Origin: Streptomyces profundus
Lineage (GTDB): Bacteria > Actinomycetota > Actinomycetes > Streptomycetales > Streptomycetaceae
DNA: 64,000 nt
NCBI RefSeq assembly: GCF_020740535.1
Contig: NZ_CP082362.1
Coordinates: forward strand, 4,028,501-4,092,500
Reading direction: 5' to 3'
The notes beneath the pieces are model-generated. The model searched no databases, was not told the DNA's origin, and worked only from the letters and a program-made list of their open reading frames with translations. Shown piece after piece: positions 42,404 to 63,653 of the stretch. Numbering within the stretch: position 1 is the stretch's first letter; each line of letters opens with the position of its first letter. Position numbers and translations under genes: made by a program.

Positions 42404-42476
42404 GCCTCCGTAGCTCAGGGGATAGAGCACCGCTCTCCTAAAGCGGGTGTCGCAGGTTCGAATCCTGCCGGGGGCA
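42404..42476 (+). tRNA. tRNA-Arg (anticodon CCT), integration site
   Basis: This 73-nt cloverleaf has acceptor strand GCCTCCG pairing with CGGGGGC, D-arm GCTCAGGGGATAGAGC, anticodon loop CTCCTAA and T-arm GCAGGTTCGAATCCTGC. The discriminator is A, and CCA is not encoded. It reads AGG. An integrase gene follows 46 bp downstream in convergent orientation, so the tRNA 3' end is the likely attachment site of the mobile element. Confidence 0.96.
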
Positions 42477-42522
42477 CCGCTCGTCAGGTCGCTGACCTGG
42501 GGTTTCCTCCCAGCGAAGCGCT

Positions 42523-45166: not shown

Positions 45167-45352
45167 ACGGTTGCCGGCGGTCGGCCGCCTGTGTCGTGTT
45201 GACGCAGAAACGTTGGACTGTTGGCGGAGGTGGACGTACTGTCCCTGCTCCCCGGCCATAGCGGCGCGCCTCCGGTGCCTGCCAGCCCAGAGGCCCCGGG
45301 GCCCATTCCGCCCCCTCCCGGCGAACAACCAGCGCAGCAAGAGGAGCCGCCA

Positions 45353-46566
45353 GTGCACCCCGAGACCCCCAAGCTCGATCCCGCGCCCGACACTACCGCC
45401 CCGCCACCGGTCACGGAGCCGGACAGCCCCGACCGTCAGGAGCCCATCGCACCGGACCCGGACCCGACCTGCGGCTCGGCTCTGCTGGACGAACTGCGCA
45501 CGCGCATAGCCGAGTTCGTGATCCCGCCCTCAGAGGAAGCGCTGGACGCCGTCACGCTGTGGGTGGCCGCCACGCATCTTCAACCCGCGTGGCAGCACGC
45601 GCCGCGTCTCGCGGTCGTCGGGCCGGCGAAGCGGTGCGGCAAGTCGCGGCTGCTGGACGTGCTGACCGAGACCGTCCACGAGCCGATGCTCACCATCAAC
45701 ACCACGCCGGCAGCGGTCTTCCGCTCCATCACCGAGGAGCCGCCGACCCTGTTGGTGGACGAGGCGGACACGATCTTCGGCACCCCGAAGCAGGCGGAAA
45801 AGAACGAGGAGATGCGCGGCCTGCTTAACGCCGGTCACCAGCGCAACCGTTATGTCACCCGCGTCGTCGGAAACGAGCACACGCCGCACCGGTTCGCCAC
45901 CTTCGCCATGGCGGCCCTCGCGGGCATCGGGGACCTGCCCGACACGATCATGGACCGGTCCGTGGTCATCCGGATGCGCCGCCGGGCTGAGGGCGAGCAC
46001 GTCAAGCCCTTCCGGTCCCGCCGTGACACGCCAGCTCTCCACGACCTGCGTGACCGCCTCGCGGCCTGGGCCAGGCCGCTTCTCGATGAAGCAGCCGGCC
46101 TGGAGCCGGAGATGCCGGTCGAGGACCGTGCCGCCGACACCTGGGAGCCGCTGGTCATCGTCGCCGATCTCGCCGCCGGAGCCTGGCCCCGCCTCGCACG
46201 AGCGTCCTGCGCGCGGATGGTCACCGACGAGACCCAGGCCGAGGAGGAGCACCCCAGCGAAGCGCGGATACTGGCCGACATCCGGCGGGTCTTCGTCGCC
46301 CAGCGCGAGGTCGACAGCCTCTCCACGGACGAGATCCTCCACCACCTGCGCCAGGACCCGGAAAGCCGGAGTGGGGACGAAGCGGGCTGAGCCCCCGCAG
46401 CCTGGCCGCGATGCTCCGCACCTTCGGCGTCAGGTCCGGCAACGTCCGCCTTGCCGACGGCACTCAGCGCAAGGGCTACACGCGTAACAAGTTCCTGGAC
46501 GCCTGGCGCCGCTACTGCCCGACCGTCCACCCGGTCGATGCCGAGCCCACCGGGAGTGAGAGCTGA
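45353..46566 (+). pseudogene. DUF3631 ATPase/primase-like protein, frameshifted
   Basis: This DUF3631 protein has a Walker-like loop AVVGPAKRCGKSRLLDVL, the DEAD-like LLVDEADTIFG and MDRSVVIRMRRR. The main frame stops early at 46390. The conserved C-terminus (LSPRSLAAMLRTFGVRSGN, then KGYTRNKFLDAWRRY) continues in the next frame to TGA 46566. One missing C around 46366-46367 would join them as ESPEWGRSGL. GTG 45353 is taken as start because GAGGAG lies 6 bp upstream; an in-frame TTG at 45221 would add a Pro-rich lead of 44 residues. DUF3631 proteins occur on prophages and integrative elements and resemble helicase/primase parts. As sequenced the C-terminus is lost. Confidence 0.75.
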
Positions 46567-46986: not shown

Positions 46987-47871
46987 ATGACGGAGCAGAC
47001 CGCTGAGCGCTACACGCTCGTCGCTGCGGCAACCGTCATCGTGGCGCTCACCGCCGGCGCGTTCTGGCTCTCGTACGCGCATCTCGCCGAGGTGGCCGGA
47101 CAACACGGCCTCGAACACTCCCCGGTCCGCCAGTGGGCCTGGCCGGCGACCCTGGACGCGTTCATCGTCGCCGGCGAGCTGCTCATGCTCCGCGCCGGCC
47201 TGCGGCGGGTGACCGACGGATGGGCCATCGCCCTCACGGCCACCGGCTCGATCGGCTCCATCGCGCTCAACGTGGCAGGAGTCAGCAGCACGGGCAACGC
47301 CGACGCGGTGCCGCTGCTCGACTACGTGGTCGCCGCGGTCCCCCCGACCGCCGCGCTGCTTGCCTTCGGGGTTCTGATGCGGCAGATCCACCAACTCGTC
47401 GCCGAACCCACCTCGGCCACCGACTGCCACAACTGCGTCGGCCACCGCCACAACGACACGGATGGCGCTCAGCCCGCAGCCCTCGACGGAGACGATCAGG
47501 GGCAGTCGGAGTTGCCCGTGCGTCACGTGGCACGAGCCGGCGGCCACCTGCCGAAGCAGAGGCAGCCCTCTGCGCAGTCGGCATCCCAGAAGCCCCGCAC
47601 GGTCTCCGACGAACTCCTCGCCCTCGCCCGTACCGCTCCATTGGGGCGCGGAGGCCGTGCCTCGCGCCGCCACATCGAGGCGGCCATCCGAGCCAAGGAA
47701 CTCCCCATCAGCAGGGCCGACGCGGAAACGCTCAAGGACATCCTGCAAGCCGAACTGGACGCGAACGCCCTCCGACCGTCGGCCCGCTCCGGCCAGGCCA
47801 GCCCCGCCGGCCGTCAGACCGAGGTCACCCCGCATCACGAACGCGCCACCGGAGAACCGCCCCATGCCTGA
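46987..47871 (+). CDS. DUF2637 (SpdB-like) membrane protein
   Basis: This 294-residue protein has about four membrane helices in its first ~145 residues (YTLVAAATVIVALTAGAFWL, then WPATLDAFIVAGELLMLRAG, then GWAIALTATGSIGSIALNVA, then VAAVPPTAALLAFGVLMRQI) and a hydrophilic C-terminus. DUF2637 proteins are linked to the spread functions of actinomycete plasmids and integrative elements, i.e. movement of plasmid between hyphal compartments after transfer. The stop overlaps the mobC-like gene by 8 bp. Confidence 0.88.
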   Translation: MTEQTAERYTLVAAATVIVALTAGAFWLSYAHLAEVAGQHGLEHSPVRQWAWPATLDAFIVAGELLMLRAGLRRVTDGWAIALTATGSIGSIALNVAGVSSTGNADAVPLLDYVVAAVPPTAALLAFGVLMRQIHQLVAEPTSATDCHNCVGHRHNDTDGAQPAALDGDDQGQSELPVRHVARAGGHLPKQRQPSAQSASQKPRTVSDELLALARTAPLGRGGRASRRHIEAAIRAKELPISRADAETLKDILQAELDANALRPSARSGQASPAGRQTEVTPHHERATGEPPHA

Positions 47872-48484
47872 TGCCCACCACGAACTTCCCGCTGCCCAGG
47901 AGGAGACACCCGCGCCCACCGAGCCAGCAAGGTATCCCGCTGGACCGTCCAAGGACGGCAGCGACAGGGAACCCTCCGCCCCAGGGGTGGCGGAGGGACC
48001 CGGGCACCAGGGGGTGCCCGAGCAGGAGCCGCTCGTCCGCGCCGCCGAGGTCGCCGCACTGCACCGGGTCGCCCGACGTCGCCGTCGCGACCCGAACGGC
48101 CAGCGCAAGCAACGCGTCGATGCCCGCTACAGCGTTGACGAGAAGGCCGACATCCTCCGTAAGGCCCGAGCGCTCAACATCGCCGGAGCCCACTACGTCG
48201 GAGCCGTCGTCATGGCCCACGTCCACGGTGACCTCACCTTGCCAGGCCAACGCACCGAGATCGACGACTACATCGACGAGCTGACTGCCCTCCGTGGCGA
48301 AGTCACGAGGATCGGCCACAACATCAACCAGATCGCCAGGAAGCTCAACGCAGGTGGTCAACCGCACCACGGGGACTCCGAACTCCTGGCCCAGGTCGAG
48401 AACACCCTGACCATGGTTGGCGCCACAGTCAGCCACATCGCCGCCGCCACCAACCAGGCCGTCGCCAAGAGGCCGCCCCGGTGA
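47864..48484 (+). CDS. MobC-like relaxosome accessory protein
   Basis: This 206-residue protein has a disordered acidic N-terminus of about 75 residues and a C-terminal MobC-like region: RKQRVDARYSVDEKADILRK, then AHYVGAVVMAHVHG, then LRGEVTRIGHNINQIARKLN. In mobilizable plasmids, MobC helps open the DNA at oriT and recruits the relaxase. ATG 47864 has GGAGAA upstream and overlaps the SpdB-like gene. Its stop overlaps the relaxase GTG (GTGA), which strongly supports a joint role. Confidence 0.88.
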   Translation: MPDAHHELPAAQEETPAPTEPARYPAGPSKDGSDREPSAPGVAEGPGHQGVPEQEPLVRAAEVAALHRVARRRRRDPNGQRKQRVDARYSVDEKADILRKARALNIAGAHYVGAVVMAHVHGDLTLPGQRTEIDDYIDELTALRGEVTRIGHNINQIARKLNAGGQPHHGDSELLAQVENTLTMVGATVSHIAAATNQAVAKRPPR

Positions 48485-50121
48485 TCGCGAAGATCAGCGG
48501 TGGCAAGGACACGGGCGGACTGATCCGCTACCTGTTCGACACGAAGAAGGCCAAGGACCACACCGACCCGCACCTCGTCGCCTCCTGGGACGGCTACGCT
48601 CCCGATCCCGGCCGCACGGACGATGCCGACACCACACGCAAGCTGCTCATGGCCGACCTCGACCTGTACGTGAAGCAGGCTCGGCGGCTCGGCTCCGCCC
48701 CTGAGAAGCACGTCTGGCACTGCTCGATCCGTGCGTCTCCTCAGGACCGAATCCTCAGCGACGAAGAGTGGGCGGACATCGCCCGCCGCGTCGTCGCCGC
48801 TACCGGAATCGCGCCTGACGGCGACCGGGACGGCTGCCGGTGGGTCGCCGTACGCCACGCTCCCGATCACATCCATATCGCCGCCACCAAGGTCCGGCGA
48901 GATCTCCGCACCGCCCGACACTGGAACGACTACCTCAACGCCGACCGCGAACTCGCCGCCATCGAGGAGGAACACGACCTGCGCCGCGTCGTGCGCGGGG
49001 ACCGCACCGCCGCGAAGCGGCCTACCCGTGCCGAGCAGGAAAAGGCCCACCGTGCCGGACAGAAGACGACCGCTCGCGAACACCTGCGAACCACCGTCCG
49101 TACCGTGGTAGCGGCGGCCTCCAGCATCGAGGAGTTCGTCCACCTGCTGAGCCACCTCGACGATGTGCTCGTGGACGTCGTGTACTTCCCCTCCGGCGAC
49201 GTACGGGGCTACAAGGTGGCCAGCCAGGACTCCACCACCGCCGACGAACAACCGGTGTGGTTCTCCGGCTCCGCACTCGCCCCAGACCTGTCCTTCCCCA
49301 AGATCCGGGCGCGCCTGGAGAACATCGCCCCGAAGCCCACCGCCCAGCCGGGCCAGCACGAGACCGACCCGTGGCACCGGGCCGCCGCCACGATGGAACG
49401 CATCCCGCACCACCTCCACCAGGCCGATGACGAAGCCGCTCAGGGCCACATCGCCGCCTTCGGTGAGACGCTCGACCTGCTTCCCCTCCTTGCTCCCAAG
49501 GCCCTCCAGCCCCAACTCCGCGAAGCGGCGATCGCCTTCGAGCGAGCCACCCGCTCCCGCGTCCACGCACGGCACCACCACGGCCGCGCCCTCCGCGCAG
49601 CCGTACGGACGATGCTCCGCGAGCCGGCCTCCGGGGACGGAGCCGGGCTGGCGATGCTCCTCGACGTCGCGATCCTCCTCGTCGTCGCCGCAGCCCGCTG
49701 GCACCAGCTCCGCCGCCACGACCAGCAAGTCGCCGCCGCCCACCGGACCCTGGTCCACCTCCAGGCGGCCTACGACCAAGCCGCGGCCTCACCCCTGGCG
49801 GCCCTTGCGCAGCGCCGGCCGTCCCCGCTGACCGTGGACAGGACCACGCGCCATCTACGTCAAGCCTTGCCCGCGCACATGGAACAGGTGCTCCGGGACC
49901 CGGCCTTCGACGCGCTTACCGCCGCCCTCGCCGAAGCCGAGGCCGTGGGCCACAACGTGGACCAACTTCTCCACCGGGCCGTTGATCAGCGCGCCCTGGA
50001 TGACGCCCGCCACCCGGCACGTGTGCTGATCTGGCGTGTACGGAGGCTCAGCGCAGCGCGGATGCAGAACGGTCCGGCGGCCTTTCCTGCCGCACAACCA
50101 TCGAACGCTCGTCGGCGCTGA
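48481..50121 (+). CDS. Relaxase/mobilization nuclease (MobA/VirD2-like)
   Basis: This 546-residue relaxase nicks the transfer origin and stays bound to the 5' end of the strand. The N-terminal ~160 residues form the nuclease: MIAKISGGKDTGGLIRYLFD, HVWHCSIRASPQDR, and the histidine cluster in RWVAVRHAPDHIHIAATKV that binds the metal. A candidate catalytic tyrosine lies in RYLFD. The rest is helical, with one hydrophobic stretch (GLAMLLDVAILLVVAAARW, about residues 385-405) that may contact the transfer apparatus. It overlaps the mobC gene. No coupling protein is encoded in view. Confidence 0.92.
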   Translation: MIAKISGGKDTGGLIRYLFDTKKAKDHTDPHLVASWDGYAPDPGRTDDADTTRKLLMADLDLYVKQARRLGSAPEKHVWHCSIRASPQDRILSDEEWADIARRVVAATGIAPDGDRDGCRWVAVRHAPDHIHIAATKVRRDLRTARHWNDYLNADRELAAIEEEHDLRRVVRGDRTAAKRPTRAEQEKAHRAGQKTTAREHLRTTVRTVVAAASSIEEFVHLLSHLDDVLVDVVYFPSGDVRGYKVASQDSTTADEQPVWFSGSALAPDLSFPKIRARLENIAPKPTAQPGQHETDPWHRAAATMERIPHHLHQADDEAAQGHIAAFGETLDLLPLLAPKALQPQLREAAIAFERATRSRVHARHHHGRALRAAVRTMLREPASGDGAGLAMLLDVAILLVVAAARWHQLRRHDQQVAAAHRTLVHLQAAYDQAAASPLAALAQRRPSPLTVDRTTRHLRQALPAHMEQVLRDPAFDALTAALAEAEAVGHNVDQLLHRAVDQRALDDARHPARVLIWRVRRLSAARMQNGPAAFPAAQPSNARRR

Positions 50122-50141: not shown

Positions 50142-51251
50142 TCAGGCGTCGGAAGAACGTGCCAGGCTCCCCCGGATCACAAGATCGCTGGCGTTCAGGG
50201 CCGCCGTCAGGTCCCCTCGCAGCTCATCCGAGAGGACCCCTGAGCCGAGGGAGCAGGCACGAACCAGCGCACGGCAGTCCGCTGCCTGCACTTCTGCGGC
50301 GAGCGCGGTGAACAGTGGGTGCGCCAGAGTCTCGCGTGCCGCGTAACCGTCCTGGGCCTCCACCGTCCTGCGGTGCAGGTCCGCGACAACGCGGCGTGCG
50401 ACGGGCGAGGCGGCGGAGTCGATCAGGTCGAGGACCGTGAGGCCGAGTCGGATGGTGAAGACGGTGATCCCGGGTTCGGCCTGCCGCTCAAGAAAGGCGG
50501 CTACCAGCTCGTCCAGTTCCCGGTCGACCACCTGCCCGGCGGCGCGGCGGCACAGGACCGTCAGGCAGGCTGTGAGGTCCTGCTCCCATTGGTCGCCGGG
50601 CAGCGTGTCGGCGAGGAGAGCAGCCGCCGCTTCCGTTTCGCCCGCGACGAGTGCCGCAAGTACGGCGACCTGACGTCCGTCGAGCATCCGTTGCCCCACT
50701 CCGTGGTGAGCCTCGATGTGCGCCAGGGCCTCGTTCCATCGGCCCTCGGTGGTGAGGCTGCGGGTGCCGTCGGCAAGGAGCACGCGCCACAACCACGCCC
50801 GGACCTCCTGGCGTTCCTCGTCGGTCGCGGCGAGATCCGCCGGGACCGCGATGCCTTCGAAGCTGGCAGCTCTGCCCGCTTCGACCGCCGCATAGAGGGC
50901 AAGCAGGCGTCGATGGCCCTCATCCGCGCGGCCAGCTCGGATCTGAAGGCGGGCGAGGTTGACGACAGGTTCGAGACCACGGATCGCGCTCATGCCCGGC
51001 AGGGGGCAGGCGTGTAGGTAGGCGGCAGCGTGCTGGTGGCACATCTCGCGCGCCACGTCAGGAAGGCCGAGGTCGGAGGCGACGAGCGCCGCCTGGTTGT
51101 AGACGGCCGAGGCAAGCCCCTGGTCGCCCTGCCGTGCCGCGCTGTCGGCGAGTTCGACAAGGCTCCGCACACGTTCCCGCAAGGGCAGGCACGCGGGGCG
51201 GAAGCGGGCGACGAGCGGGAAGCGCCGAGCTATGCGGCCGTGCGGGGCCAT
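50142..51251 (-). CDS. Repeat-type helical protein of the lanthipeptide locus, unknown role
   Basis: This 369-residue soluble protein is made of helical TPR-like pairs (RERVRSLVELADSAARQGDQ, then ASAVYNQAALVASDLGLPDV, then REMCHQHAAAYLHACPLPGM, and so on). No enzyme motif is visible. Similar proteins are often encoded next to lanthipeptide dehydratase/FxLD methyltransferase genes in streptomycetes. ATG 51251 follows GGGGGAA. It is the last gene of the lan operon, 68 bp after the methyltransferase. It may be a scaffold or regulator; this is inference from position. Confidence 0.75.
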   Translation of the reverse strand: MAPHGRIARRFPLVARFRPACLPLRERVRSLVELADSAARQGDQGLASAVYNQAALVASDLGLPDVAREMCHQHAAAYLHACPLPGMSAIRGLEPVVNLARLQIRAGRADEGHRRLLALYAAVEAGRAASFEGIAVPADLAATDEERQEVRAWLWRVLLADGTRSLTTEGRWNEALAHIEAHHGVGQRMLDGRQVAVLAALVAGETEAAAALLADTLPGDQWEQDLTACLTVLCRRAAGQVVDRELDELVAAFLERQAEPGITVFTIRLGLTVLDLIDSAASPVARRVVADLHRRTVEAQDGYAARETLAHPLFTALAAEVQAADCRALVRACSLGSGVLSDELRGDLTAALNASDLVIRGSLARSSDA

Positions 51252-51319
51252 GGATTCCCCCGGGGTGCGAGTGCGGGCTTGCTGCGGCGACGGTGCCCGC
51301 CGCCGCAGCTGAGGGGGAG

Positions 51320-53401
51320 TCACTGCCAGTCGACGACGATCCGGTTCAGAGGGGTGTCGAGGGCGAAGAGGCCGGGGCGTTGTTCGATCGCCGGGGCGTC
51401 CAGGGCCTGGATCTCGAATGCGGCCTCTCGGCTGCGGAACTCCCGGTCCCAGGTGCGGATGGCGTCGGCCACCCTCGCGGCCAACGCGTCGCTGCCGGGG
51501 CCGTGACCGATGACGCCGAACTCCCATAGCTTGTCGCCCTCGGGCGTCCTCCTCTCCGACGGACGCCTGGCCAGGTAGGTCAGGGCGCCCTTGTCGACGG
51601 CGGCGGTCGAGGAGGGATAGGGGTCTTCGGTGAGCAGGCCACCCTTGGCGGTCGGCGGGAACAGCATCCGGATCAGACCGGAAGGAAGGGAACAGGTGAC
51701 GAACAGCTCCATCCACTCCGGCGACTCCATGGCGCGGACCGTCATCCCGGTCCACTCCTCAACGCGCGGCTGGTCCAGGACTCCGGCAAGAGCGTCAGCG
51801 TCCAGGCTGAGCCCGGCGGGAGCATGGAGCCGGACGGTGCCGTCGTCGCTGAGCGGGACAACGCGGCGGTCGTCGTCGGCGATGCCGCGCCGGAGTGGCA
51901 TAAAGGTGTTCATCTCGCTGCCGAGGGAGAGCCAGCGGCCGTCGCGCGGCTCGTAGGCGATGGAGCGGCACACCGTGCCCTTGAGTCGCTGGGGAACGAG
52001 CAGCCGGCCGCCGGGCGCGAGTTGTTCCAACCAGGCGTGCGGCACGCCGTGGGCGCCCACCGTGGCGATGATCCGGTCGTATGGCGCCCCTTCGGCGTAG
52101 CCGAGGGCGCCGTCGCGGGTCACGGCCGTGACGTTGGTGATCCCGGCGGCGGCGAGGTGTTCTCGGGCGCCTTCCACCAGGTCATCGTCGACGTCGAGGG
52201 TGGTCACCCGCCCGCCCGCGCCGACCAGATGGGCGAGCAGACCGGCGTTGTAGCCGGTGCCGGCGCCGAGTTCGAGGATGTGCTTGCCGGGCTGTGCGTC
52301 GAGCTGGTCCAGCATGAGGGCGACGACGCCCGGCTGGGAGGCGCAGGAGATGGAGGTGCCGTCGGTGTCGTACTTGATGTGCACCGGCGCGTTGGCGTAC
52401 GCGTCTTCGAGCGAGGCGTCAGGCACGAAGAGGTGGCGGGGCACGCTCCGCAACGCGTCCTCGACGGCGGGAGTGCGGGCGTGTCCGTCCGCCCGGAGCT
52501 GGTCGACCAGGGCGTTGCGGAGGCGCTCGGCGTCCGCCGTGGGTGTGGCGATCGTGTCGGTGTTCACCGGGCCGACGCTAGCGGCGCTGGATGTCGCCTC
52601 GGTGCGCGACGCGGTGGGCTCACTCGTTCCCATGACTACCTCTCGTGCGGTGTTGAACAGGGTGCTCTGGTCGTCCCGGAGGAGACCAGCGCGGTTGGCG
52701 TGGAAGATCAGATGGTGGGCGAGGACGGCGCGCAGGCCCCGGGTGAGCACGCCTCCACTGGCGAGGTCGGCGAGCGTGGCCCCGGTGCTTTCGAAGGCGG
52801 TCACCCATTCGGCGTGGCCATGGAGCGGACCATCCGGTCGGCAGAGGCTGCAGGCGTCGGCGGACATGAGCTTCCGCACGGCCGGGACCAGTTCGGCCCG
52901 GCGCTCGGGCGGTAGGGGATGGGTGGCCGGCCGAAGGGCGGCAGCCTTGGCCCACACGTCGCCCTGCTCGAACCAGTCGAGCCCGGCGCCGCGCATCATG
53001 GCGCTCGCCAGCAGGACGACGGTCTCCCGTCGGCCCAGGCGTTCCGGCCCTGGCTGATAGGTGAGCAGATGGCGGGAGTCGTGGTGGAACAGCGCGTGGG
53101 CCACGTCCATGCCGTCCGGGCCGCCGAACGCCGCGACCTCGGGCTCGTAGACCTGAGGCCGGCAGGACACGGCCGAGCCGTCGCGGACGAGATCACCCAG
53201 CAGCACTTCGATCATGGGCGAGGGCTTGCCGGCGCGGTAACGCAGCGGCCAGGGCTGCTTGTTCATGAACCACCACCCGGTGAGCTGCCCCTCCGCCTCG
53301 GCGTCTATCAGGGAGGGACCGATCCGTCCGACGACGGCGCGCCGGGCGGTCTCGCGGTCGCGAAAGGTGATGTTGTGCTGCTGCCAGCGATCGGGAGGCA
53401 T
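51320..53401 (-). CDS. FxLD-system methyltransferase fused to a SpaB_C-like elimination domain
   Basis: This 693-residue two-domain protein has residues 1 to ~258 matching the thiopeptide-type bacteriocin biosynthesis (SpaB_C, glutamate-elimination) domain: VYEPEVAAFGGPDGMDVAHAL with HHDSRHLL, and WVTAFESTGATLADL. Residues ~285-500 form a protein-L-isoaspartate methyltransferase-like domain with SQPGVVALMLDQL and the SAM loop ILELGAGTGYNAGLLA (375-390). A ~190-residue unique tail follows. PIMT-type methyltransferases in class I lanthipeptide loci methylate an Asp so that it rearranges through succinimide to isoaspartate. The fusion places a possible elimination activity beside this step. ATG 53401 has GAAGGA upstream, 24 bp after lanC. 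Confidence 0.88.
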   Translation of the reverse strand: MPPDRWQQHNITFRDRETARRAVVGRIGPSLIDAEAEGQLTGWWFMNKQPWPLRYRAGKPSPMIEVLLGDLVRDGSAVSCRPQVYEPEVAAFGGPDGMDVAHALFHHDSRHLLTYQPGPERLGRRETVVLLASAMMRGAGLDWFEQGDVWAKAAALRPATHPLPPERRAELVPAVRKLMSADACSLCRPDGPLHGHAEWVTAFESTGATLADLASGGVLTRGLRAVLAHHLIFHANRAGLLRDDQSTLFNTAREVVMGTSEPTASRTEATSSAASVGPVNTDTIATPTADAERLRNALVDQLRADGHARTPAVEDALRSVPRHLFVPDASLEDAYANAPVHIKYDTDGTSISCASQPGVVALMLDQLDAQPGKHILELGAGTGYNAGLLAHLVGAGGRVTTLDVDDDLVEGAREHLAAAGITNVTAVTRDGALGYAEGAPYDRIIATVGAHGVPHAWLEQLAPGGRLLVPQRLKGTVCRSIAYEPRDGRWLSLGSEMNTFMPLRRGIADDDRRVVPLSDDGTVRLHAPAGLSLDADALAGVLDQPRVEEWTGMTVRAMESPEWMELFVTCSLPSGLIRMLFPPTAKGGLLTEDPYPSSTAAVDKGALTYLARRPSERRTPEGDKLWEFGVIGHGPGSDALAARVADAIRTWDREFRSREAAFEIQALDAPAIEQRPGLFALDTPLNRIVVDWQ

Positions 53402-53425
53402 GGGCGTCCTTCGGTTGGTGGTGGA

Positions 53426-54688
53426 TCAGGCGATGAGCAGGCAGGCGTCCCAGGCCGACCCGGGTGGTGTGGCGGTGGCGGGCGCGAGCAGCGCCAGGGC
53501 TATGCCGGCCGCGCCGCCGAGGAACCCGGGGTCCTGCTTCTTGTCTTGAACGAGCACGCCGGCCATGAGCTCGGGGTCCGTGCCCGGTGGGGTGGCCGCA
53601 GCCAAGGGGACTCGCAACGCGGCGCGGAGCCGGCCAACCGTCGTGGAGTGTGCGTCTTCAGCGACCCGAGCGGCGACATGGGCGAGGCCGGCGAAACCGT
53701 GACACAGGCCGCTGTCGGTCATGGCCCTCAGTTGGTCGGGATCGGCGAGGGCGGCCACGAGCGCGTTCTCCGCGTCGATCTGGCGGTTCGTTTCGCCGAG
53801 GGCGAGAGCCGCGAGTTGTTGGGCGCGGGCGAGGCCGGCGGTGCCGTAGCACCAGGAAGGCCGCCGAGGCTGGTACGGGAGAAGGCGACCGTTGCGCAGT
53901 TCTTCCCGGGTGACCCAGTACGGCCAGGCCGGTGCGCCGCCTGAGTTTCCCCGCCAGCGGTCCAGCCAGGCCAGGATGGTGCGCAGCGCCGCATGGTGGC
54001 CGTCGACGAGGGTTCCGTTCCGGGCAGCGAGTGCGAGGAGCGCCAGCACGCCGCCGATGCCGTGCGCCATGCCGGTGTTGGCGTGCCCGCCGGGAAAACG
54101 GTCGTCCGGCCTGCCGGAAGGACCCGTCCGCGTCCACCAGCCCGGCAGGCGTTCCCCGTCGTGAGTGATCGGCTCGGTGAGGCGCACGCAGTAGTCGAGA
54201 ACGGCACGTGCGGTCGGACCACCGGGGTCCCGGCGCAGAAGGTGGGCGCCGTATCCGGTCAGTCCCCGGATGGCGTCGAACTCGGCGAGTTGTGGCAGGC
54301 GTCCGGCGTCGATGCGACGGTGCGCGATGTCGAGATGGTGCCTGACGTCCACGACGATCTGCCGGTCCATCGTGTCCAGGGCGCGTCGGTAGGAGCCGGG
54401 AAGGTGATCGGCGGCGCAGACCAGGGCATGGGCGAAGGCGGGCATCCCGTAGAAGGGATGGCTGTGCGGGCCGCTGGTGAGCGGTTGGTCGGAGGCCGCA
54501 GCGAGCCAGTCGTGGGCGCGCTGCCACGGCGCCACACCGCGCACGGCTCGTTCGATGTGCAGGAGTGCGATGCCGGGCGGGCCGTAGGCGAGGTGCTGCC
54601 GGTGTTCCCGGCGGGCCGGAACCGTACTGGGGCCGGCGAGCTGGTGAGCAACGGCGTCGACCAAGGCGAACGCGGGATGGGCGGTCAC
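53426..54688 (-). CDS. Lanthipeptide cyclase LanC
   Basis: This 420-residue zinc enzyme adds cysteine thiols to dehydrated Ser/Thr to form lanthionine rings. The zinc ligands are Cys280 in WCYGTAGLARA and Cys329-His330 in GLCHGFAGLAHV. GMAHGIGGVLALLALAARNG is the conserved alpha-toroid motif, and GFLGGAAGIALALLA closes the ring. GTG 54688 has GGGAGG 6 bp upstream and overlaps the lanB stop (GTGA). This start gives the conserved family length. Confidence 0.93.
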   Translation of the reverse strand: MTAHPAFALVDAVAHQLAGPSTVPARREHRQHLAYGPPGIALLHIERAVRGVAPWQRAHDWLAAASDQPLTSGPHSHPFYGMPAFAHALVCAADHLPGSYRRALDTMDRQIVVDVRHHLDIAHRRIDAGRLPQLAEFDAIRGLTGYGAHLLRRDPGGPTARAVLDYCVRLTEPITHDGERLPGWWTRTGPSGRPDDRFPGGHANTGMAHGIGGVLALLALAARNGTLVDGHHAALRTILAWLDRWRGNSGGAPAWPYWVTREELRNGRLLPYQPRRPSWCYGTAGLARAQQLAALALGETNRQIDAENALVAALADPDQLRAMTDSGLCHGFAGLAHVAARVAEDAHSTTVGRLRAALRVPLAAATPPGTDPELMAGVLVQDKKQDPGFLGGAAGIALALLAPATATPPGSAWDACLLIA

Positions 54689-57600
54689 GTCGGCCTCCCG
54701 GTGGTGCGTGCGGTCCAGGCCAGCGCGGCGGCACGCGCGAGGTAGCGGCACACCTCTTCCTCGGGGAAGTTCACCGCGACGTGGCGGACGAAGTGGACGT
54801 GCAGCAGGGAGGTGAGGACATCATCGAGCGCGATGCCCTCGGTGTCCGGGCCGGGAAGGTGTGTCCGGTATGCGGCGAGCGCCACGTCCCGCCCGGCCCA
54901 CCCCGACACGACGACGCTTCCGCCCGGCACATCGCGGAGCGCCGCCCAGTCGTCCGACGGGTTGGCGAGCCGTACGGCTTCGGCGAACTCCGCCCGCGCA
55001 ACGCGCACGGGAGCCGCCGGCGGGATGTGGTCGATCAGCCATCGCGTTCCGGCCTCGACACCACCGAGGAACGCGGAGGCGATGGCGACGGTATGGGCAG
55101 CCACCAGCGCGCGCTGGCCGAGACGTCGCGGCTCGGCGAGCTGGGCCAGGACAGCGCGCGAGTCCGCCCGGAACACCTCCTCGGCCGCCTCCCAGGCGTC
55201 GCCGGAACCCCAACGGCCCATCTCGCGATAGGAGGTGAGGTAGCGCAGATCGGCCAGCAGGCCGGCGCCACGTAGCCCGTCGGCCCAGGCGCTCACCGTT
55301 CGGGCCGTGTCGGCGAAGGCTCCCGGCTCGCGGAGACTGATGCGAACGCGGAGATGCTGAGCCGGGTCTCGGAAGCGGATGAACCACCATGGCGGGTCAC
55401 CGAGTTGTTCGAGAAGACGGGGAACGTGCCGGGCGAGCAGCGCGTCCTGCCGCCGAGGATCGCCGTAGAGGGCGGCCAGAAGTACCGAGGAGCCGGCGGG
55501 AGTCTGCACCTGAGCTGCGGAGAGGTTCCGCGCCGAGGTGGGGGCAGGCAGCCGCGGCCATGCCGGCGGGCGTGTCGCCCTGAGCGGCACCACGACCTCG
55601 TGGGCTCGCCCGCCGCACCAACCGTAAGCCTCCGGCTCCGGAGCTTCGACGAGCACGGCGAGTCCCGAACGGTTGAGGTGCTGGCGCAGCAGCGTCCGGT
55701 GGCCCGCCTCGTCCAGGTCGAGGAACAGACGCCGGTCGCCCTCGACGAGGTGGACGCGGCGGGGCAGCCGCCGCCGAGCCTGCACGTCGCTGAGCGCCGC
55801 TTCCCACTCCGACCGCAGGCAGTCACGGTCCGGCAACTCGGCTGCCTCCAGCCGCCAGCGCGCCGGAGACAGCACCGTCCGCCCATGCCGCAGGCGCGGA
55901 AGGTAGGGCATCGCCGCGGCGGCGCCCCAGTCGAACACGGTGACCTGCGCGCACTGAGCCCGAGACAGCTCGCTGAGGAAGCGCGCCAACGGTGGGGTGT
56001 GCGTGTGCGGGTTCAGCGCGTTCATCCCGATGGCTTCGACGCGGTGGCCTCGCTCCGGGGCGGCCAGGTACATGCGGCGGCCGTCGCACCCCACCGCCAA
56101 GTCATCCGGAGTGAGGACCGCGTCTTCCGGGGCGCGGTGCTCCTGGAGGCTGATCACGGTTGGCAGGACCTGCGGGGCGCGGGTGACATGTGCGGTCTCG
56201 GCGTTCAGTGGGGGGAAGGACAGCTGCGCGGGCACGGTGCCACCATCCGCGACCGGGAGGTCCGACAGCTCCGCAGCCAACGCCTCTCGGTCGTCCGGAG
56301 CCAGCATGCCGAGGAACCGGCCCGTGGACACGCCAACACCGCGAGAAACACTCACCACCTCCAACCGAAACCGCCCCTGCCGCAAGGCGTCCAGGCTGGC
56401 CGCGTGCACCCGGACCCCGACCTCCAAGTGGGGCGGCAGCCGAGGCTCGTCGGGGCCGACGTCCAGGGCCGCGATCACCTCGTCGGTGAGGACCACCTCG
56501 TCCCGTCCGTCGAGGGCGGCGGCCTGCGCCAAGCGCACGAGGACGTCATCCCGCGCGGAGATCCGGGGGCGCCGCGCGCCGGCCGGAGTCCCCGGGTAGC
56601 CGTCGGGATAGCCGGTACCGCTGTCCGCCACGACTTCGGCGAGCGGCACCAGCGTGCCGATCCCGTACCGCTCGTAGAACCGCTGGTGGTACTCGTTCCA
56701 CGCGGCGGTCCCGTAAGGCCGAGCGCTCACTCGGGTCAGGACAAGGGCGGCGCGCTCGATCTCCCTGGCCACCTCGTCCGGCACGACGATCCGCGCGTCC
56801 ACCCGCAGGTCCAGTGCCAAGGGATGACGGCGCAGACCGGGAACGAGGTCCCGCATCCGCTCCGCTGCCCGTTCCCGACCGCCGGGCGAGCCGCACGTGT
56901 CCAGGGCCTCCCGGACACCGTGCAGTTCGGCGACCTGGACCACGTCTCCCGCGCTCACCGCGTCGAGTTGCCCGAGCAGATATCCGAGCGCATCGGTCTC
57001 GGTGCTCGGCGCGTGCAGGCTGGTGATCAACACCCGCCTTCGAATCAGCTCTCGTAGCAGCCCCCTCGCCCTCTCCGGCCCGGCCTCGGGGAACTCCGCC
57101 CGGAGTGCGTCCCGCAGCGCACCAAACCGGATCGGTGCGTGAGCAGCGGCGAGGACCGCACGCACCGGTTGGGTCAGGGCCAGCGACGCCTCGACAGCAC
57201 GAGGCCGGTCGTCCTGGGCATCGGACTGGAAGGGGACGATGAGCCGGTCGTCACGGCTGGTCACGGCGCTGTTGACGACAACGGGCAGGCGTTCCAGAAG
57301 CTCCGGACACGACTCCAGCCGCTCGACCACGGCAGCCAACCACTCGGCCCCCGCACGGGCGACGACCACGTGCTCCTCGCCCCAGTCCGCACGCGCCCGC
57401 GGACCGAACTTCGCGGTCGCCACGCCGGCGAACAGGCCGAAGGGCGTTGGCCGATGCTGGGCCCGCAACAGGTAGCGGGCCACGGACAGGGCCGCACGCC
57501 GGACATCCCGCTGGGGAGGACGCTCGGTCATACACAGGGTGTGGACCCGGTCTGCCAGCACCGGGCTGGAGTGCCGCAGCGCCTCCGCCAAGTCCCGGTC

Positions 57601-57756
57601 CGCCCAGACCGCGCGCAGCCACGTCGCTTGAGCGGACACCGCGCCGGGTGAACGTTCGTCGAGGTCGGGGCATGGCGGCACCGGTTGCGAAGGCCGGGCC
57701 ACAGCGCGCACGAGGGCGGTGGCGCCGGCTCGGAACGGTGCGGGCGGAGCAGCCAT
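54685..57756 (-). CDS. Lanthipeptide dehydratase LanB, full length
   Basis: This 1023-residue class I dehydratase has an N-terminal glutamylation domain (ARYLLRAQHRPTPFGLFAGV, YGTAAWNEYHQRFYERYGIG), a middle region, and a C-terminal elimination (SpaB_C) domain from about residue 760: LLAALYGDPRRQDALLARHV, WWFIRFRDPAQHLRVRISLR, YLTSYREMGRWGSGDAWEAA. It uses glutamyl-tRNA to glutamylate Ser/Thr and then eliminates glutamate to dehydroamino acids. ATG 57756 is 5 nt after GGAGGT; TTG one codon upstream is too close. The gene sits 87 bp after the precursor gene. Confidence 0.95.
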   Translation of the reverse strand: MAAPPAPFRAGATALVRAVARPSQPVPPCPDLDERSPGAVSAQATWLRAVWADRDLAEALRHSSPVLADRVHTLCMTERPPQRDVRRAALSVARYLLRAQHRPTPFGLFAGVATAKFGPRARADWGEEHVVVARAGAEWLAAVVERLESCPELLERLPVVVNSAVTSRDDRLIVPFQSDAQDDRPRAVEASLALTQPVRAVLAAAHAPIRFGALRDALRAEFPEAGPERARGLLRELIRRRVLITSLHAPSTETDALGYLLGQLDAVSAGDVVQVAELHGVREALDTCGSPGGRERAAERMRDLVPGLRRHPLALDLRVDARIVVPDEVAREIERAALVLTRVSARPYGTAAWNEYHQRFYERYGIGTLVPLAEVVADSGTGYPDGYPGTPAGARRPRISARDDVLVRLAQAAALDGRDEVVLTDEVIAALDVGPDEPRLPPHLEVGVRVHAASLDALRQGRFRLEVVSVSRGVGVSTGRFLGMLAPDDREALAAELSDLPVADGGTVPAQLSFPPLNAETAHVTRAPQVLPTVISLQEHRAPEDAVLTPDDLAVGCDGRRMYLAAPERGHRVEAIGMNALNPHTHTPPLARFLSELSRAQCAQVTVFDWGAAAAMPYLPRLRHGRTVLSPARWRLEAAELPDRDCLRSEWEAALSDVQARRRLPRRVHLVEGDRRLFLDLDEAGHRTLLRQHLNRSGLAVLVEAPEPEAYGWCGGRAHEVVVPLRATRPPAWPRLPAPTSARNLSAAQVQTPAGSSVLLAALYGDPRRQDALLARHVPRLLEQLGDPPWWFIRFRDPAQHLRVRISLREPGAFADTARTVSAWADGLRGAGLLADLRYLTSYREMGRWGSGDAWEAAEEVFRADSRAVLAQLAEPRRLGQRALVAAHTVAIASAFLGGVEAGTRWLIDHIPPAAPVRVARAEFAEAVRLANPSDDWAALRDVPGGSVVVSGWAGRDVALAAYRTHLPGPDTEGIALDDVLTSLLHVHFVRHVAVNFPEEEVCRYLARAAALAWTARTTGRPT

Positions 57757-57843
57757 CAATGACCTCCGTAGGTGACGGGACGGGCAGCCGGTGCCGCCGC
57801 GTTCGGACGCGGCGGCACCAGACCCGCAGGAACGCGGTACCGG

Positions 57844-58023
57844 TCAGGCGACGTTGGTGGTGCAGGCGCCGCAGGTGGACCCGCAGTTGTCGTCGGTCAG
57901 GTTGACGAGGCCAGCCGGGTCGGAAATCTCGACGAGAGAAACGTCCAGGTCGAAACCGTCCGACACCGCCGGGTCCTGCGGGCGCACCTCGCTGCTGCTG
58001 GGAACTGCGGTGATGAGAGACAT
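57844..58023 (-). CDS. FxLD-family class I lanthipeptide precursor (LanA)
   Basis: This 59-residue peptide has the leader recognition motif FDLD at residues 24-27, which defines the FxLD family, then a core near residues 41-59 with three cysteines (47, 51, 54), threonines 43, 50, 55 and 56, and Ser49. Three thioether rings are possible. Asp44-Asp45-Asn46 before the first Cys is the likely target of the partner methyltransferase (isoaspartate). ATG 58023 has GAGGAG 7 bp upstream. The peptide ends CTTNVA. It starts the operon and is followed by lanB. Confidence 0.92.
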   Translation of the reverse strand: MSLITAVPSSSEVRPQDPAVSDGFDLDVSLVEISDPAGLVNLTDDNCGSTCGACTTNVA

Positions 58024-58212: not shown

Positions 58213-58659
58213 TCACTCGGCCCCCTCGGTGCGCAGTTCCGCCCAGACCTCTTTGCCCCACGGGCACCTCTCCGTGCCCCTGATCTCGCAGCCCCAGCCG
58301 TCGGCGACGGCTTCGATGAGGAACAGCCCTCGCCCCGACTCGTCGCTCTCGCCTGCGCAGCCGAGCTCCGGTAGACGCGACGGCTCCTCGTCCACGACTC
58401 CGACACGCACCCGCGTCGCGCTCGGTCGTCCGAGGACCACATGTATCTCGACGCACGAGGTGTGCCGGGCGGCGTTCGCGATCAGCTCCGTGACGACCAG
58501 CGCTGCTTGGTCAGCGAGGTCGTCCAGGTGCCACACCCCGAGTACGCCTCGGACGAGCTCGCGGCCGATCTCGGCGGTGGACGGTTCGCAGGGGAGGGTC
58601 TGGCTGTACGTGGGGTGGCCGACGGAGACGGCCTCAGTTGGCGTTCTCAGACTCGTCAT
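58213..58659 (-). CDS. HATPase_c ATP-binding protein (anti-sigma-factor-like)
   Basis: This 148-residue GHKL ATPase-fold protein resembles RsbW/SpoIIAB-type regulatory kinases. The N-box is VVTELIANAARHTS, the G1-like motif VGVVDEEPSRLPEL, and the G2-like SGRGLFLIEAVADGWG. Streptomycetes have many such small proteins near HTH regulators, where they may act as serine kinases or ligand-binding partners. The gene is divergent from the HTH/TPR gene at 58885 and lies 190 bp upstream of the lanthipeptide precursor. ATG 58659 is a reasonable start; GTG 58698 is possible. It has no neighbouring anti-anti-sigma gene. Confidence 0.82.
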   Translation of the reverse strand: MTSLRTPTEAVSVGHPTYSQTLPCEPSTAEIGRELVRGVLGVWHLDDLADQAALVVTELIANAARHTSCVEIHVVLGRPSATRVRVGVVDEEPSRLPELGCAGESDESGRGLFLIEAVADGWGCEIRGTERCPWGKEVWAELRTEGAE

Positions 58660-58884
58660 GGGGATGGAGCCTTCGTGTGGTCTCGGCGCTCGGCCCACCC
58701 CGATGCGGAACTTCAGGGCCGGGCCGAGCCGTCAACAGCCGCTGCGAGCGGCCGACACCAAGACAACTCCCCCTCATCGGCAAGTGATTAGGGCGATCGA
58801 CTCCTTACCGAGCGGCACGGCCTAGGGTGATTTGACCTTCCCTTTACCTCGCTCTTGAGGGCGTGGGAGAGCTACCGTGCGGGC

Positions 58885-60165
58885 ATGGACACCACGCGCA
58901 ACACGGTCCTTGAGGCGTGGATGGCCGAACACGGGTACAGCTCCAACAGCCTTGCCGACGCGGTGAACAGCGCCATGGAGAGACTGACCGGGCGACCCGG
59001 TGGTCTCGACGGCTCATCGGTCCGCGCCTGGAAGGCCGGCCGGGTCACCTGGCCGAAGTCGGTCACCCGCAAGGCACTTGAGGATGTCAGCGGCCTGCCC
59101 GCCGTCGCCTTAGGGTTCGTGCCACGGAGCCGGCCTCCGACCGCCCCGGCCGCATCGCAGCAGGAGGACCTCGACATGAAGCGCCGCAGCCTTGTCGGTG
59201 GCATCGCGGCTGCCGCCGCCGCGGCAGCCGCGCCCGGGACCGCGTCGCGCCGCATCGGCATGAGCGACGTCAACCGCCTGAACCAGCGCTTCGCCGAGAT
59301 CATCGCCAGCGACCACCGGCACGGTGGACAACTCGGCATCGAGCAGCGGGCCGCCGCGCTCGCCGACGAGGCGCTCAACCTCCAGAACGCGGGGAGCGCC
59401 ACCCAACGCGTGCGCAGCAGCATCTACGCCTCTGCGGCGGCCTTCCGTTCCTCGGCGATGTGGGCCGCCATCGACGGCCGGCGCTACGACATCGCCAAGG
59501 GACACATGCGCGAGGCCCAAGCCCTCGCCGAGATGTCCGGCGACCAGGCGATCAAGTTCCGCATCTGGAGCCACGCGGGCACCATGTACCGGCACATGGG
59601 CCGCCCAGCCGACGCCATCGCCGCCAATGACGTGGCCCGCAACCTCCACCTCACCCGTCGCGATCCCCTGTTCGCCTCCCTCGGCCTGGCCCGCCAGGGC
59701 GCCATCCACGGCACGGCGCAGGACCGCACCGGCGCCCGCCGGGCTTTCGGGCAGGCCCAGGAAGCCATGCTGCGCGCCGATCCAGCCGACCACCGGCCGG
59801 TGTGGTTGCTCGCCTTCTACGACCAGGCGGAGTTGGACTCCCTGGCCCTCTGCGCGCATCTGGCGCTCGGCGACTACCCGGTCGCCGAGTACCACGCGCA
59901 CCGCTGCCTGTCGGCCCTCCGGCCGCACATGGTCCGCTCCCGGGCCATCGCCACCACCCGGCTCGCCCATGCCCAACTCGCCCAGGGCGACGCGGACGCC
60001 GCCACGGAGACCGCGATGAACGTTCCCTCCGATGCCGCTACCCGGCACGCCCGAGTGTCGCGGATGCTCCAGGAGTTCGGGGCCGCGCTCCGGGCCACGG
60101 CGCCCGGCAGTACCACCGCGCGGACCTGGACCGAGCACGCCGCCACCTGGAGGATGGCCGCATGA
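58885..60165 (+). CDS. HTH/TPR-type transcriptional regulator
   Basis: This 426-residue protein has an N-terminal XRE-like helix-turn-helix (LADAVNSAMERLTGRPGG, SSVRAWKAGRVTWPKSVTRK) and a long TPR-like C-terminal domain (IEQRAAALADEALNLQNAGS, YDIAKGHMREAQALAEMSG and later repeats). An internal MKRRSLVGG followed by an alanine run at residue 98 resembles a Tat signal and also has a good AGGAGG upstream. These proteins are often named transcriptional regulators next to lanthipeptide or differentiation genes. It overlaps the GNAT gene (ATGA) and is divergent from the HATPase gene. Confidence 0.8.
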   Translation: MDTTRNTVLEAWMAEHGYSSNSLADAVNSAMERLTGRPGGLDGSSVRAWKAGRVTWPKSVTRKALEDVSGLPAVALGFVPRSRPPTAPAASQQEDLDMKRRSLVGGIAAAAAAAAAPGTASRRIGMSDVNRLNQRFAEIIASDHRHGGQLGIEQRAAALADEALNLQNAGSATQRVRSSIYASAAAFRSSAMWAAIDGRRYDIAKGHMREAQALAEMSGDQAIKFRIWSHAGTMYRHMGRPADAIAANDVARNLHLTRRDPLFASLGLARQGAIHGTAQDRTGARRAFGQAQEAMLRADPADHRPVWLLAFYDQAELDSLALCAHLALGDYPVAEYHAHRCLSALRPHMVRSRAIATTRLAHAQLAQGDADAATETAMNVPSDAATRHARVSRMLQEFGAALRATAPGSTTARTWTEHAATWRMAA

Positions 60166-60833: not shown

Positions 60834-62354
60834 GTGATTACAGGTGAGCTGAAGAGCAAGATCGATCGATTGTGGGACGCCTTCTGGTCAGGGGGTATCT
60901 CGAATCCGCTGGAGGTCATCGAACAGATCACCTACCTGATGTTCATCCGGCGCCTCGACATCCTGGAACAGGCCAAGGAGAACAAGGCCAACCGCACTGG
61001 GCGGCCGGTCGAGAACCCGATCTACGCGGATGACACTCAAGTCCTGCGCTGGTCAGCGTTCATCAACGAGTCCCCCGAGAACATGCTCACCCGGGTACGT
61101 GACGGTGTCTTCCCCTGGCTGAGCACCCTGGGTGGCGAGGGGTCCACCTACGCGCACCACATGAAGGACGCGCGGTTCACCATCACGACCTCAAACCTGC
61201 TCACCAAGGCCGTCGACATGATCAACGGCATCGACATGGGCGACAGGGACACCAAGGGCGATCTGTACGAGTACATGCTCGGCAAGATCGCCACGGCGGG
61301 GCAGAACGGCCAGTTCCGCACGCCCCGACACATCATCCAACTGATGGTGGAGATGATGGCCCCACAACCGGGTGACGAGATCTGCGACCCGGCGTGCGGC
61401 ACCGCAGGCTTCCTCGTGGCTTCCGCAGAGTATGTGGAGCGCACGCACCGCGAGGCGTTGTACGAGCCAGCCCAGCGCCAGCACTTCAACGAAAGCATGT
61501 TCCACGGCTTCGACTTCGACAGCACCATGCTCCGTATCGGCAGCATGAATATGCTGTTGCACTCGGTCGAGAACCCCGACATCCGCTACCGCGACTCGCT
61601 CGCCCAGAGCGCGGCGGGTGAGGTTGACCGGTACTCCCTCATCCTCGCCAACCCCCCCTTCGCAGGGAGCCTCGACTATGACGCGACGGCGTCCGATCTG
61701 CAGAAGGTCGTGAAGACCAAGAAGACCGAGCTGCTCTTCCTCGCTCTCTTTCTGCGCCTACTCAAGCCGGGTGGCCGGGCCGCAGTCATTGTCCCGGACG
61801 GAGTACTGTTTGGATCCAGCAAGGCACACAAAGAACTGCGGAAGATCCTTGTCGATGACCATAAGCTGGACGCCGTAGTAAAGCTTCCCAGTGGCGTCTT
61901 CAAACCTTATGCGGGAGTCTCTACAGCGATTCTATTTTTCACCAAGACCAATAGCGGAGGAACAGATAACGTCTGGTTCTACGAAGTCACGGCAGACGGT
62001 TGGAGTCTCGACGATAGGCGAAATCCGCTACTCCCGGAAGACAAGATCGGGCCGCTCATCGGCGATGCTACGCTGAGCGATGAAGAACACAACAAAAACA
62101 ACCTTCCCGACGTGCTGTCCCGTTGGCGGCGCCGCAATGGCAGCGAGCAGGAGCGGCCCCGGACTGAGCAGAGCTTCTCTGTCTCCAAGGAGGAAATCTC
62201 TGCACAGAACTATGACCTGAGCCTGAATCGGTACAAGGAAATCACCCACGAGGAGATCGCACATCGAGAACCAAGCGAGATTATGGATGAACTCGAACGG
62301 ATCGAGGCGGATATCCAACAAGGCATGAGCGAGCTGAAGGGGATGCTGAGATGA
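60834..62354 (+). CDS. hsdM: Type I restriction-modification adenine methyltransferase subunit HsdM
   Basis: This 506-residue N6-adenine methyltransferase has a helical N-terminus (VIEQITYLMFIRRLDILEQA), an AdoMet-binding motif CDPACGTAGFLVAS, the catalytic LILANPPFAGS (NPPF) and a C-terminal region with SRWRRRNG. It methylates host DNA at the site set by HsdS and is also required for cleavage. GTG 60834 seems leaderless. It overlaps hsdS (ATGA). GC content falls within this gene toward its 3' end. Confidence 0.95.
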   Translation: MITGELKSKIDRLWDAFWSGGISNPLEVIEQITYLMFIRRLDILEQAKENKANRTGRPVENPIYADDTQVLRWSAFINESPENMLTRVRDGVFPWLSTLGGEGSTYAHHMKDARFTITTSNLLTKAVDMINGIDMGDRDTKGDLYEYMLGKIATAGQNGQFRTPRHIIQLMVEMMAPQPGDEICDPACGTAGFLVASAEYVERTHREALYEPAQRQHFNESMFHGFDFDSTMLRIGSMNMLLHSVENPDIRYRDSLAQSAAGEVDRYSLILANPPFAGSLDYDATASDLQKVVKTKKTELLFLALFLRLLKPGGRAAVIVPDGVLFGSSKAHKELRKILVDDHKLDAVVKLPSGVFKPYAGVSTAILFFTKTNSGGTDNVWFYEVTADGWSLDDRRNPLLPEDKIGPLIGDATLSDEEHNKNNLPDVLSRWRRRNGSEQERPRTEQSFSVSKEEISAQNYDLSLNRYKEITHEEIAHREPSEIMDELERIEADIQQGMSELKGMLR

Positions 62355-63586: not shown

Positions 63587-63622
63587 TCACTGTGATGGCT
63601 CACATGCCGAATCGCCCGACCT

Positions 63623-63644
63623 CTTTCGTTCGCATCAACGAAAG
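63623..63644 (+). promoter_or_regulatory. Hairpin masking the hsdR ribosome site
   Basis: CTTTCGTT and AACGAAAG pair perfectly over 8 bp with a 6-nt loop. The second arm contains most of the GAAAGG Shine-Dalgarno of hsdR, so folding could block translation. Alternatively it could be a protein-binding site. Confidence 0.5.
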
Positions 63645-63653
63645 GTTATTACC

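Follow-up and report, generated by a model that had tools for sequence, protein, structure and literature searches.

The window analysed here, a stretch of 64,000 nucleotides of Streptomyces profundus (positions 4,028,501-4,092,500 on one contig of 7.65 Mb), carries a lanthipeptide gene cluster transcribed on the minus strand in the order LanA precursor, LanB dehydratase, LanC cyclase, a fusion protein of 693 aa and a tetratricopeptide repeat (TPR)-like protein of 369 aa. The LanA gene (57844..58023), the only one recognised in the cluster, encodes a 59-aa precursor with FDLD at residues 24-27 of the leader, a core beginning around T43 (TDDNCGSTCGACTTNVA), three Cys residues (47, 51 and 54), the stretch T43-D44-D45-N46-C47 and a C-terminal CTTNVA. 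LanB (54685..57756) is a full-length dehydratase with a glutamylation domain and an anti-type glutamyl lyase (PF04738, 708 bits; PF14028, 114 bits), whose translation appears to start at the ATG at 57756 rather than at the TTG at 57759, and LanC (53426..54688; PF05147, LANC_like, 124 bits) seems to start at the GTG at 54688, which overlaps the LanB stop, in preference to the listed GTG at 54751. The fusion protein (51320..53401) combines matches to TIGR03891, PF14028, TIGR04364 and PF01135, and the TPR-like protein (50142..51251), all-helical in a predicted structure with a predicted local distance difference test (pLDDT) score of 93.0, has no match in Pfam or NCBIfam. Gene content, domains, key residues, element ends and recurrence were established directly, and the window is read here, with a probability of about 0.8 for the whole including its mechanism, as a coi-type class I lanthipeptide cassette residing on a mobilizable element integrated at a tRNA-Arg gene.

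Class I membership is indicated by a LanB with both Lant_dehydr_N and Lant_dehydr_C and by LanC, with PF04738, PF14028 and PF05147 all exceeding their gathering scores; the WCYG and CHG motifs of LanC, which have a zinc-ligand role, align with those of NisC. Alignments of LanB to MibB, 9g04 and NisB show that the motifs matching the NisB Arg pair and Glu-x-x-Arg are kept and that a LanB His aligns with the His of 9g04, the assignment of catalytic residues following in part PMC9486935 and in part what is generally held for these enzymes. In agreement with the initial annotation, which had called the locus an FxLD class I cluster with its own precursor (FDLD, three Cys, a CTTNVA end), LanB, LanC and a protein isoaspartate methyltransferase (PIMT)-type enzyme, LanA reaches 47.4 bits with the TIGR04363 model ('FxLD family lanthipeptide'), whose cut-off is 30, and the fusion protein 443.6 bits with TIGR04364 ('methyltransferase, FxLD system'), for which 320 is required. 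Its statement that no transporter or leader peptidase is encoded also stands, no exporter, transporter or peptidase family being found in Pfam scans of those open reading frames (ORFs) of the element taken as genes, with small ORFs not scanned exhaustively. The annotation overlooked the glutamyl-lyase domain that shares a polypeptide with the methyltransferase, the separate TPR-like protein at 50142-51251, the neighbouring regulators and the status of the cluster, itself real, as cargo of an integrated mobilizable element, and it overrated the rarity of the cluster: an FxLD precursor match (E <= 0.001) occurs in 114 of 392 genomes of the genus, 111 of them over the cut-off, and related coi chemistry has been published (PMC9486935). 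The source genome contains a single TIGR04363 match and a single TIGR04364 match over cut-off; none of 14 control genomes matched TIGR04363 or exceeded the TIGR04364 cut-off, though general PIMTs matched in all 14. Named precursor relatives are mostly from Streptomyces.

The coi cluster of Streptomyces coelicolor A3(2) (CoiA1, CoiB, CoiC and CoiSA), whose chemistry has been worked out (PMC9486935), has as its hallmark a second glutamyl lyase fused to a PIMT-type methyltransferase (PMC9486935, and the available part of PMC9011353), and the same architecture is found in the window, where a lyase domain (TIGR03891, residues 6-256) lies N-terminal to a PIMT domain (TIGR04364, residues 291-692) in one protein. 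The PCMT match stops at residue 471 of 693, leaving a long C-terminal extension, and the fusion protein is, as judged by its sequence, a syn-type glutamyl lyase (6-256) joined to a PIMT-type O-methyltransferase with such an extension (291-692). Its K48 aligns with the Lys at residue 46 of the coi-type proteins of loci L154 and L156, K46 of CoiSA having been shown to be important as the catalytic Lys position (PMC9486935); its E88 matches E89; and, in the alignment with coi-type proteins, the position of NisB Arg826 is occupied by Ala91 (within E88-V-A-A91), which gives the combination of a Lys and a hydrophobic residue at the Arg826 position that marks the coi type. CoiSA R51 and R53 are not both retained, the corresponding columns holding P52 and R54; this pair was not treated as defining the coi type because R51A and R53A stayed active (PMC9486935). 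Relatives of the fusion protein number 2401 among 7993 scored candidates, and among the matches listed 119 other fusion relatives are 82-85% identical, with both domains present.

The Pro in place of R51, together with a complete LanB that has a lyase domain of its own, would suit an Olv-like product, for which the fused lyase would serve only as a scaffold or be inactive, LanB would perform all eliminations and the rings would be ordinary LL or DL ones. K48, E88 and the lack of an Arg at the NisB Arg826 position, however, fit a syn-lyase signature, and CoiB alone stalled at one dehydration (PMC9486935), so that this alternative is regarded as unlikely. The olv system itself (OlvA and OlvSA of Streptomyces olivaceus) resembles the window in its class I rings and in having a PIMT-type methyltransferase that modifies a core Asp once LanB and LanC have acted, and differs in that OlvSA has no fused lyase and OlvA has an additional lanthionine ring, according to the available part of PMC13001092. 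The coi and olv types are among the commonest actinobacterial class I lanthipeptide clusters (PMC9486935). Families I 1-4 of Walker et al. 2020 likewise comprise class I precursors from actinobacteria, with a core Asp that is conserved and a PF01135 methyltransferase, and that family-level survey also notes fusions of an elimination domain to PIMT; from the available part of it (PMC7268733), the window core is not placeable in any of these numbered families.

In comparison with the coi system, the window has the same full LanB, LanC and lyase-methyltransferase fusion with a catalytic Lys, no protease gene, the same T43, C47, T50 and C51 positions in CoiA1 numbering and the same C-terminal Cys-x-Thr-Asn-Val-Ala. 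The coi-type core spacing T43/C47/T50/C51/C55/T57 is nevertheless not reproduced in LanA, where C54 and T56 are the final Cys and Thr; because the C51-to-last-Cys spacing is one residue shorter, the precursor is called a variant of the coi type and not identical to it. The window also differs in having T55 in place of Ala, in being element-borne, in its one recognised LanA and in a LanB that shares only about 46-48% identity with the coi-type LanBs of L213-L216. Longer-spaced coi-type precursors, for instance LTDDGCGSTCSSPCATNVA, occur at L148, L154, L156 and L213-L216, these loci being recognised as coi-type by residue spacing and K46 numbering. At L213, L215 and L216, two recognisable precursor genes lie upstream of LanB.

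In the characterized systems, CoiB converts T43 and T50 to (Z)-dehydrobutyrine (Dhb), T57 most likely becomes (E)-Dhb through the CoiSA lyase, and CoiC closes T43-C47 (LL), T50-C55 (DL) and C51-T57 (D-allo-L) (PMC9486935), and OlvSA, a PIMT homologue, methylates a core Asp after cyclization to give an aspartimide that opens to 70-80% isoaspartate (isoAsp), as stated in the available part of PMC13001092. By analogy with this work on CoiA1 and OlvA, from which every chemical step and the ring stereochemistry are taken, LanB would glutamylate Ser and Thr residues of LanA using Glu-tRNA, and its anti-lyase would generate (Z)-Dhb at T43 and T50, while the fusion lyase domain would eliminate glutamate at T56, probably in syn fashion to (E)-Dhb. 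LanC would then close T43-C47, T50-C54 and C51-T56, giving a predicted product with three methyllanthionine rings, of which C51-T56 is probably the rare D-allo-L methyllanthionine. D44-D45-N46, described in the initial annotation as lying just before the first ring, fall by comparison with CoiA1 inside the predicted ring A (T-x-D-x-C), where D45 is the likely site at which the PIMT domain would methylate the peptide to yield an aspartimide, with isoAsp as the main product of its opening; a conserved core Asp and a PIMT with a long C-terminal extension, the two features expected of an aspartimide- or isoAsp-containing ribosomally synthesized and post-translationally modified peptide, are both present. 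Export and leader removal would be carried out by host functions, and the element would spread by means of its integrase and relaxase, with transfer machinery supplied from elsewhere.

The variation among precursors of the shorter type (n = 70 distinct) is what ring formation through residues 43, 50 and 56 would predict: position 49 holds S, T or E in 53, 13 and 4 cases, position 55 T or V in 68 and 2, and position 56 T or S in 69 and 1, respectively. D45 is invariant and residue 46 is N or G in 58 and 12, the search pattern having preset T43, D44, C47, G48, T50, C51 and C[GT]AC but not D45; in two further relatives D44 is replaced and D45 kept (TNDNC in L122, TGDNC in L126). From this variation and these D44-changed relatives, the third ring is probably formed through T56, with S49 and T55 as bystanders, and methylation probably falls on D45. 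One group with LanB at 66-67% identity carries TDDGCGSSCGACVTFTD, with Ser at position 50.

Conservation of the core exceeds that of the enzymes. Across 49 clusters, mean pairwise identity is 97.5% for the core (43-59), 96.0% for residues 24-42 and 73.6% for the leader (1-23), against 82.1% for LanB, 78.3% for LanC, 85.3% for the fusion protein, 81.0% for the TPR-like protein, 73.8% for the neighbouring HATPase protein and 90.3% for the NsdA-family regulator. The values for the core and residues 24-42 are inflated because the 64 named loci were recruited by short precursor stretches from the leader or the core, part of the core being covered by two of them. In a check with 11 loci recruited through LanB (74-80% identical to that of the window), 10 yielded a precursor, in each case reading TDDNCGxTCGACxTNVA, which supports the conservation of the core independently. 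Where residues are identical, codons also agree more often in the core (0.90, against 0.70 for LanB), and constraint at the DNA level or recent spread may therefore contribute.

The cassette lies within an element whose integration site is a tRNA-Arg (CCT) gene (42404..42478, plus strand), of which 44 bases (42435-42478) recur as a direct repeat at 67457, beyond the window, and thereby bound an element of 25,022 bp. Directly after the tRNA-Arg gene lies a tyrosine (phage-type) integrase (42523..44169, minus; PF00589, 62.4 bits), followed by a helix-turn-helix protein (44166..44840, minus; PF01381, 23.9 bits, cut-off 23) and, on the plus strand, by two backbone proteins with DUF3631 (45221..46390; PF12307, 168.8 bits) and DUF2637 (46987..47871; PF10935, 45.6 bits), the latter of which is labelled SpdB here. 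Next come MobC (47462..48484, plus; PF05713, 26.7 bits at residues 280-319), whose true start is probably further downstream than the listed ORF start, and a MobA/VirD2-like relaxase (48481..50121, plus; PF03432, 32.8 bits) convergent with the TPR-like gene. Beyond the FxLD cassette, the order continues with a HATPase_c (RsbA/anti-sigma-like) protein (58213..58698, minus), which adjoins the cluster in most close relatives, an NsdA-family TPR-like regulatory protein divergent from LanA (58885..60165, plus; NF053720, 271.3 bits, cut-off 75) and, as co-cargo, the type I restriction-modification genes hsdM (methylase; 60834..62354, plus; PF02384, 212 bits), hsdS (specificity subunit; 62351..63586, plus; PF01420, 58.7 bits) and hsdR, the first part of which lies at 63498..64000 (plus) and which runs on to about 67112 beyond the window (PF04851, PF08463 and PF04313 on L010:1498-5112). 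No TraB or type IV secretion family was found in the scanned ORFs of the element, small ORFs not being included. An integrase, direct repeats and a relaxase, with no type IV secretion or TraB gene recognised, are also described for integrative and mobilizable elements (IMEs) (available parts of PMC9513070 and PMC5704250), and by the definition in the available part of PMC9513070 the element carrying the FxLD cluster would, on its sequence context, be one of these.

Further copies of the 3' half of the tRNA at 80099 (68 bp) and 87157 (45 bp) indicate tandem accretion up to about 87200, and accretion at Streptomyces tRNA-Arg has been described (available part of PMC9513070). The sequence past the last attachment (att) copy again resembles the integrase end, which may mark yet another element. 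Over this last copy (L011:5133-5200), ARAGORN reports a tRNA-Phe (aaa), as it does in genomes G290 and G363; such calls are probably att remnants of tRNA-Arg and not real tRNA-Phe genes. An Rfam scan of 42000-64000 had a tRNA as its sole match, and a scan for promoter and terminator consensus sequences around LanA gave no match.

Recurrence of this setting bears on the alternative that the cluster is an ordinary chromosomal one that merely adjoins a mobile element. The FxLD family as a whole is widespread in the genus, and 32 of 63 distinct clusters of the window core type have no relaxase in the stretch examined, as this alternative would have it. For the window it was rejected, the cluster being enclosed by the integrase end and the repeat; moreover, of nine relatives extended, six unrelated genomes show the same order, integrase included, between direct repeats, at either of two kinds of tRNA: tRNA-Arg(CCT) elements in G290 (27.7 kb) and G363 (31.5 kb), and tRNA-Lys(TTT) elements in G189 (30.3 kb), G104 (25.9 kb), G317 (29.4 kb) and G382 (27.2 kb). 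A relaxase or a fragment of one occurs in the stretch examined in 31 of the 63 clusters and in 1 of 34 other FxLD clusters (L168), an association with a Fisher p of 7e-7 that is only a guide, as the sequences are related and not independent; relaxases are otherwise sparse, with 9 matches in total in 15 control genomes. These considerations make the chromosomal alternative very improbable. The count rests on 103 distinct clusters, of which 6 were dropped for lack of room or genes; those of the core type had at least 1.5 kb beyond the cassette, the relaxase profile was built from relaxases elsewhere in the control genomes, and 20 loci and 38 later ones were hand-picked from the listed FxLD precursor matches and not drawn at random. 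The 31 positives include fragments or split genes (L048, L049, L070, L073, L096, L099 and L100) and L110, where the relaxase is upstream of the cassette, and the relaxase reaches at least 500 aa in 24 of them; the other FxLD clusters include six near relatives or unclassified cores, none with a relaxase (L056, L057, L113, L122, L123 and L126). Among the relaxase-free clusters, L072, L081 and L104 adjoin tRNA-Arg(CCT), and L095 and L103 have an integrase match, as expected of worn elements.

Intact relaxases from 25 clusters fall into two types and an outlier (L168), and the window type, with nine members, is only 39-41% identical to the second. Six of these nine (L074, L076, L080, L084, L085 and L094) have LanBs with a median identity of 90-91% to those associated with the second type, matching the similarity within their own relaxase type, whereas L069, L093 and the window are at 77-81%. 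Because LanB identity of about 90% spans relaxases that are 39-41% identical, the sequences indicate at least one exchange of the cassette or of the adjoining backbone. The closest cassette found is that of Streptomyces radicis (L073; LanB 92.6%, fusion protein 90.8%, TPR-like protein 85.9%, NsdA-family regulator 97%), located beside tRNA-Arg(CCT) with a relaxase fragment only. The genome of Streptomyces violaceoruber NRRL S-981 has one FxLD locus, which is of the window type, and no S. coelicolor coi was found there. The NsdA-family genes of L061 and L100 share a divergent C-terminal middle segment absent from the others, which suggests that recombination has occurred within the regulator gene. 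Genes for type I restriction-modification, or weak matches to such genes, are also found near the cassette in G290, L070, L085, L087, L091, L099, L104 and L125.

Several points weigh against the reading of the window as a coi-type cassette on a mobilizable element. Regarding the chemistry, residue 52 of the fusion protein is Pro where CoiSA has R51 (albeit R51A was still active), the shorter Cys spacing could make ring B, ring C or the stereochemistry differ from CoiA1, T55 could serve as the ring or dehydration residue in place of T56, and no native-producer product is known for the coi/olv cluster type (PMC9486935). Regarding the setting, three of the nine extended relatives (G252, G033 and G020) show no tRNA repeat in the stretch examined, the relaxase-free half of the core-type clusters has already been mentioned, and LanB and relaxase distances are weakly correlated (rho 0.35, reached in 1 of 999 permutations), which speaks against free exchange between backbones.

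As for the role of the product, plain antibiotic cargo that aids the host of the element against neighbours is a possibility held only tentatively. The presence of type I restriction-modification genes as co-cargo would agree with it, and IMEs on record carry lantibiotic (Tn6104), microcin and, frequently, restriction-modification genes (available part of PMC5704250); on the other hand, no immunity or transporter gene was recognised among the scanned ORFs of the element, and a near-invariant core would be unusual for an arms-race antibiotic. The near-fixed core, almost the same in dozens of species, argues for a single specific target, without indicating which one, and our guess is that the peptide, as cargo, serves fitness or signalling through one conserved target. 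The TPR-like protein, a counterpart of which is present in 79 loci, possibly corresponds to CoiH; as a proven peptide receptor it was rejected, its predicted fold giving, in comparison with Rap/NprR-type receptors, matches that are generic for helical repeats. It is quite improbable, if conceivable, that the lanthipeptide is an element-encoded signal whose near-invariant modified core is sensed by this protein or by the NsdA-family regulator, tying population density or recipient presence to element transfer or host differentiation. Rap-Phr pairs act in this way for ICEBs1 and pLS20, and, were it true, the product would be a ring-closed, isoAsp-bearing pheromone acting like such pairs.

In summary, the biosynthesis is already known from the coi system, of whose kind the window holds a new member with a predicted shortened C-terminal ring pair, and the searches made turned up no description of this recurrent, element-borne subfamily. 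Class I lanthipeptides are relatively overrepresented on predicted actinobacterial plasmids (available part of PMC9903846) and class II lanthipeptide clusters are co-located with genetic-exchange and defence genes (available part of PMC12715929), and no report of an FxLD/coi cassette as recurrent mobile-element cargo was recognised in the accessible portions of the open-licence literature searched. The shorter Cys spacing provides a natural test of ring-size tolerance in the syn-lyase and the cyclase, and the element setting opens excision- and transfer-based assays. An element-borne subfamily with a near-fixed core and a conserved regulator narrows the search for the function of the peptide to transfer, element maintenance or host differentiation.

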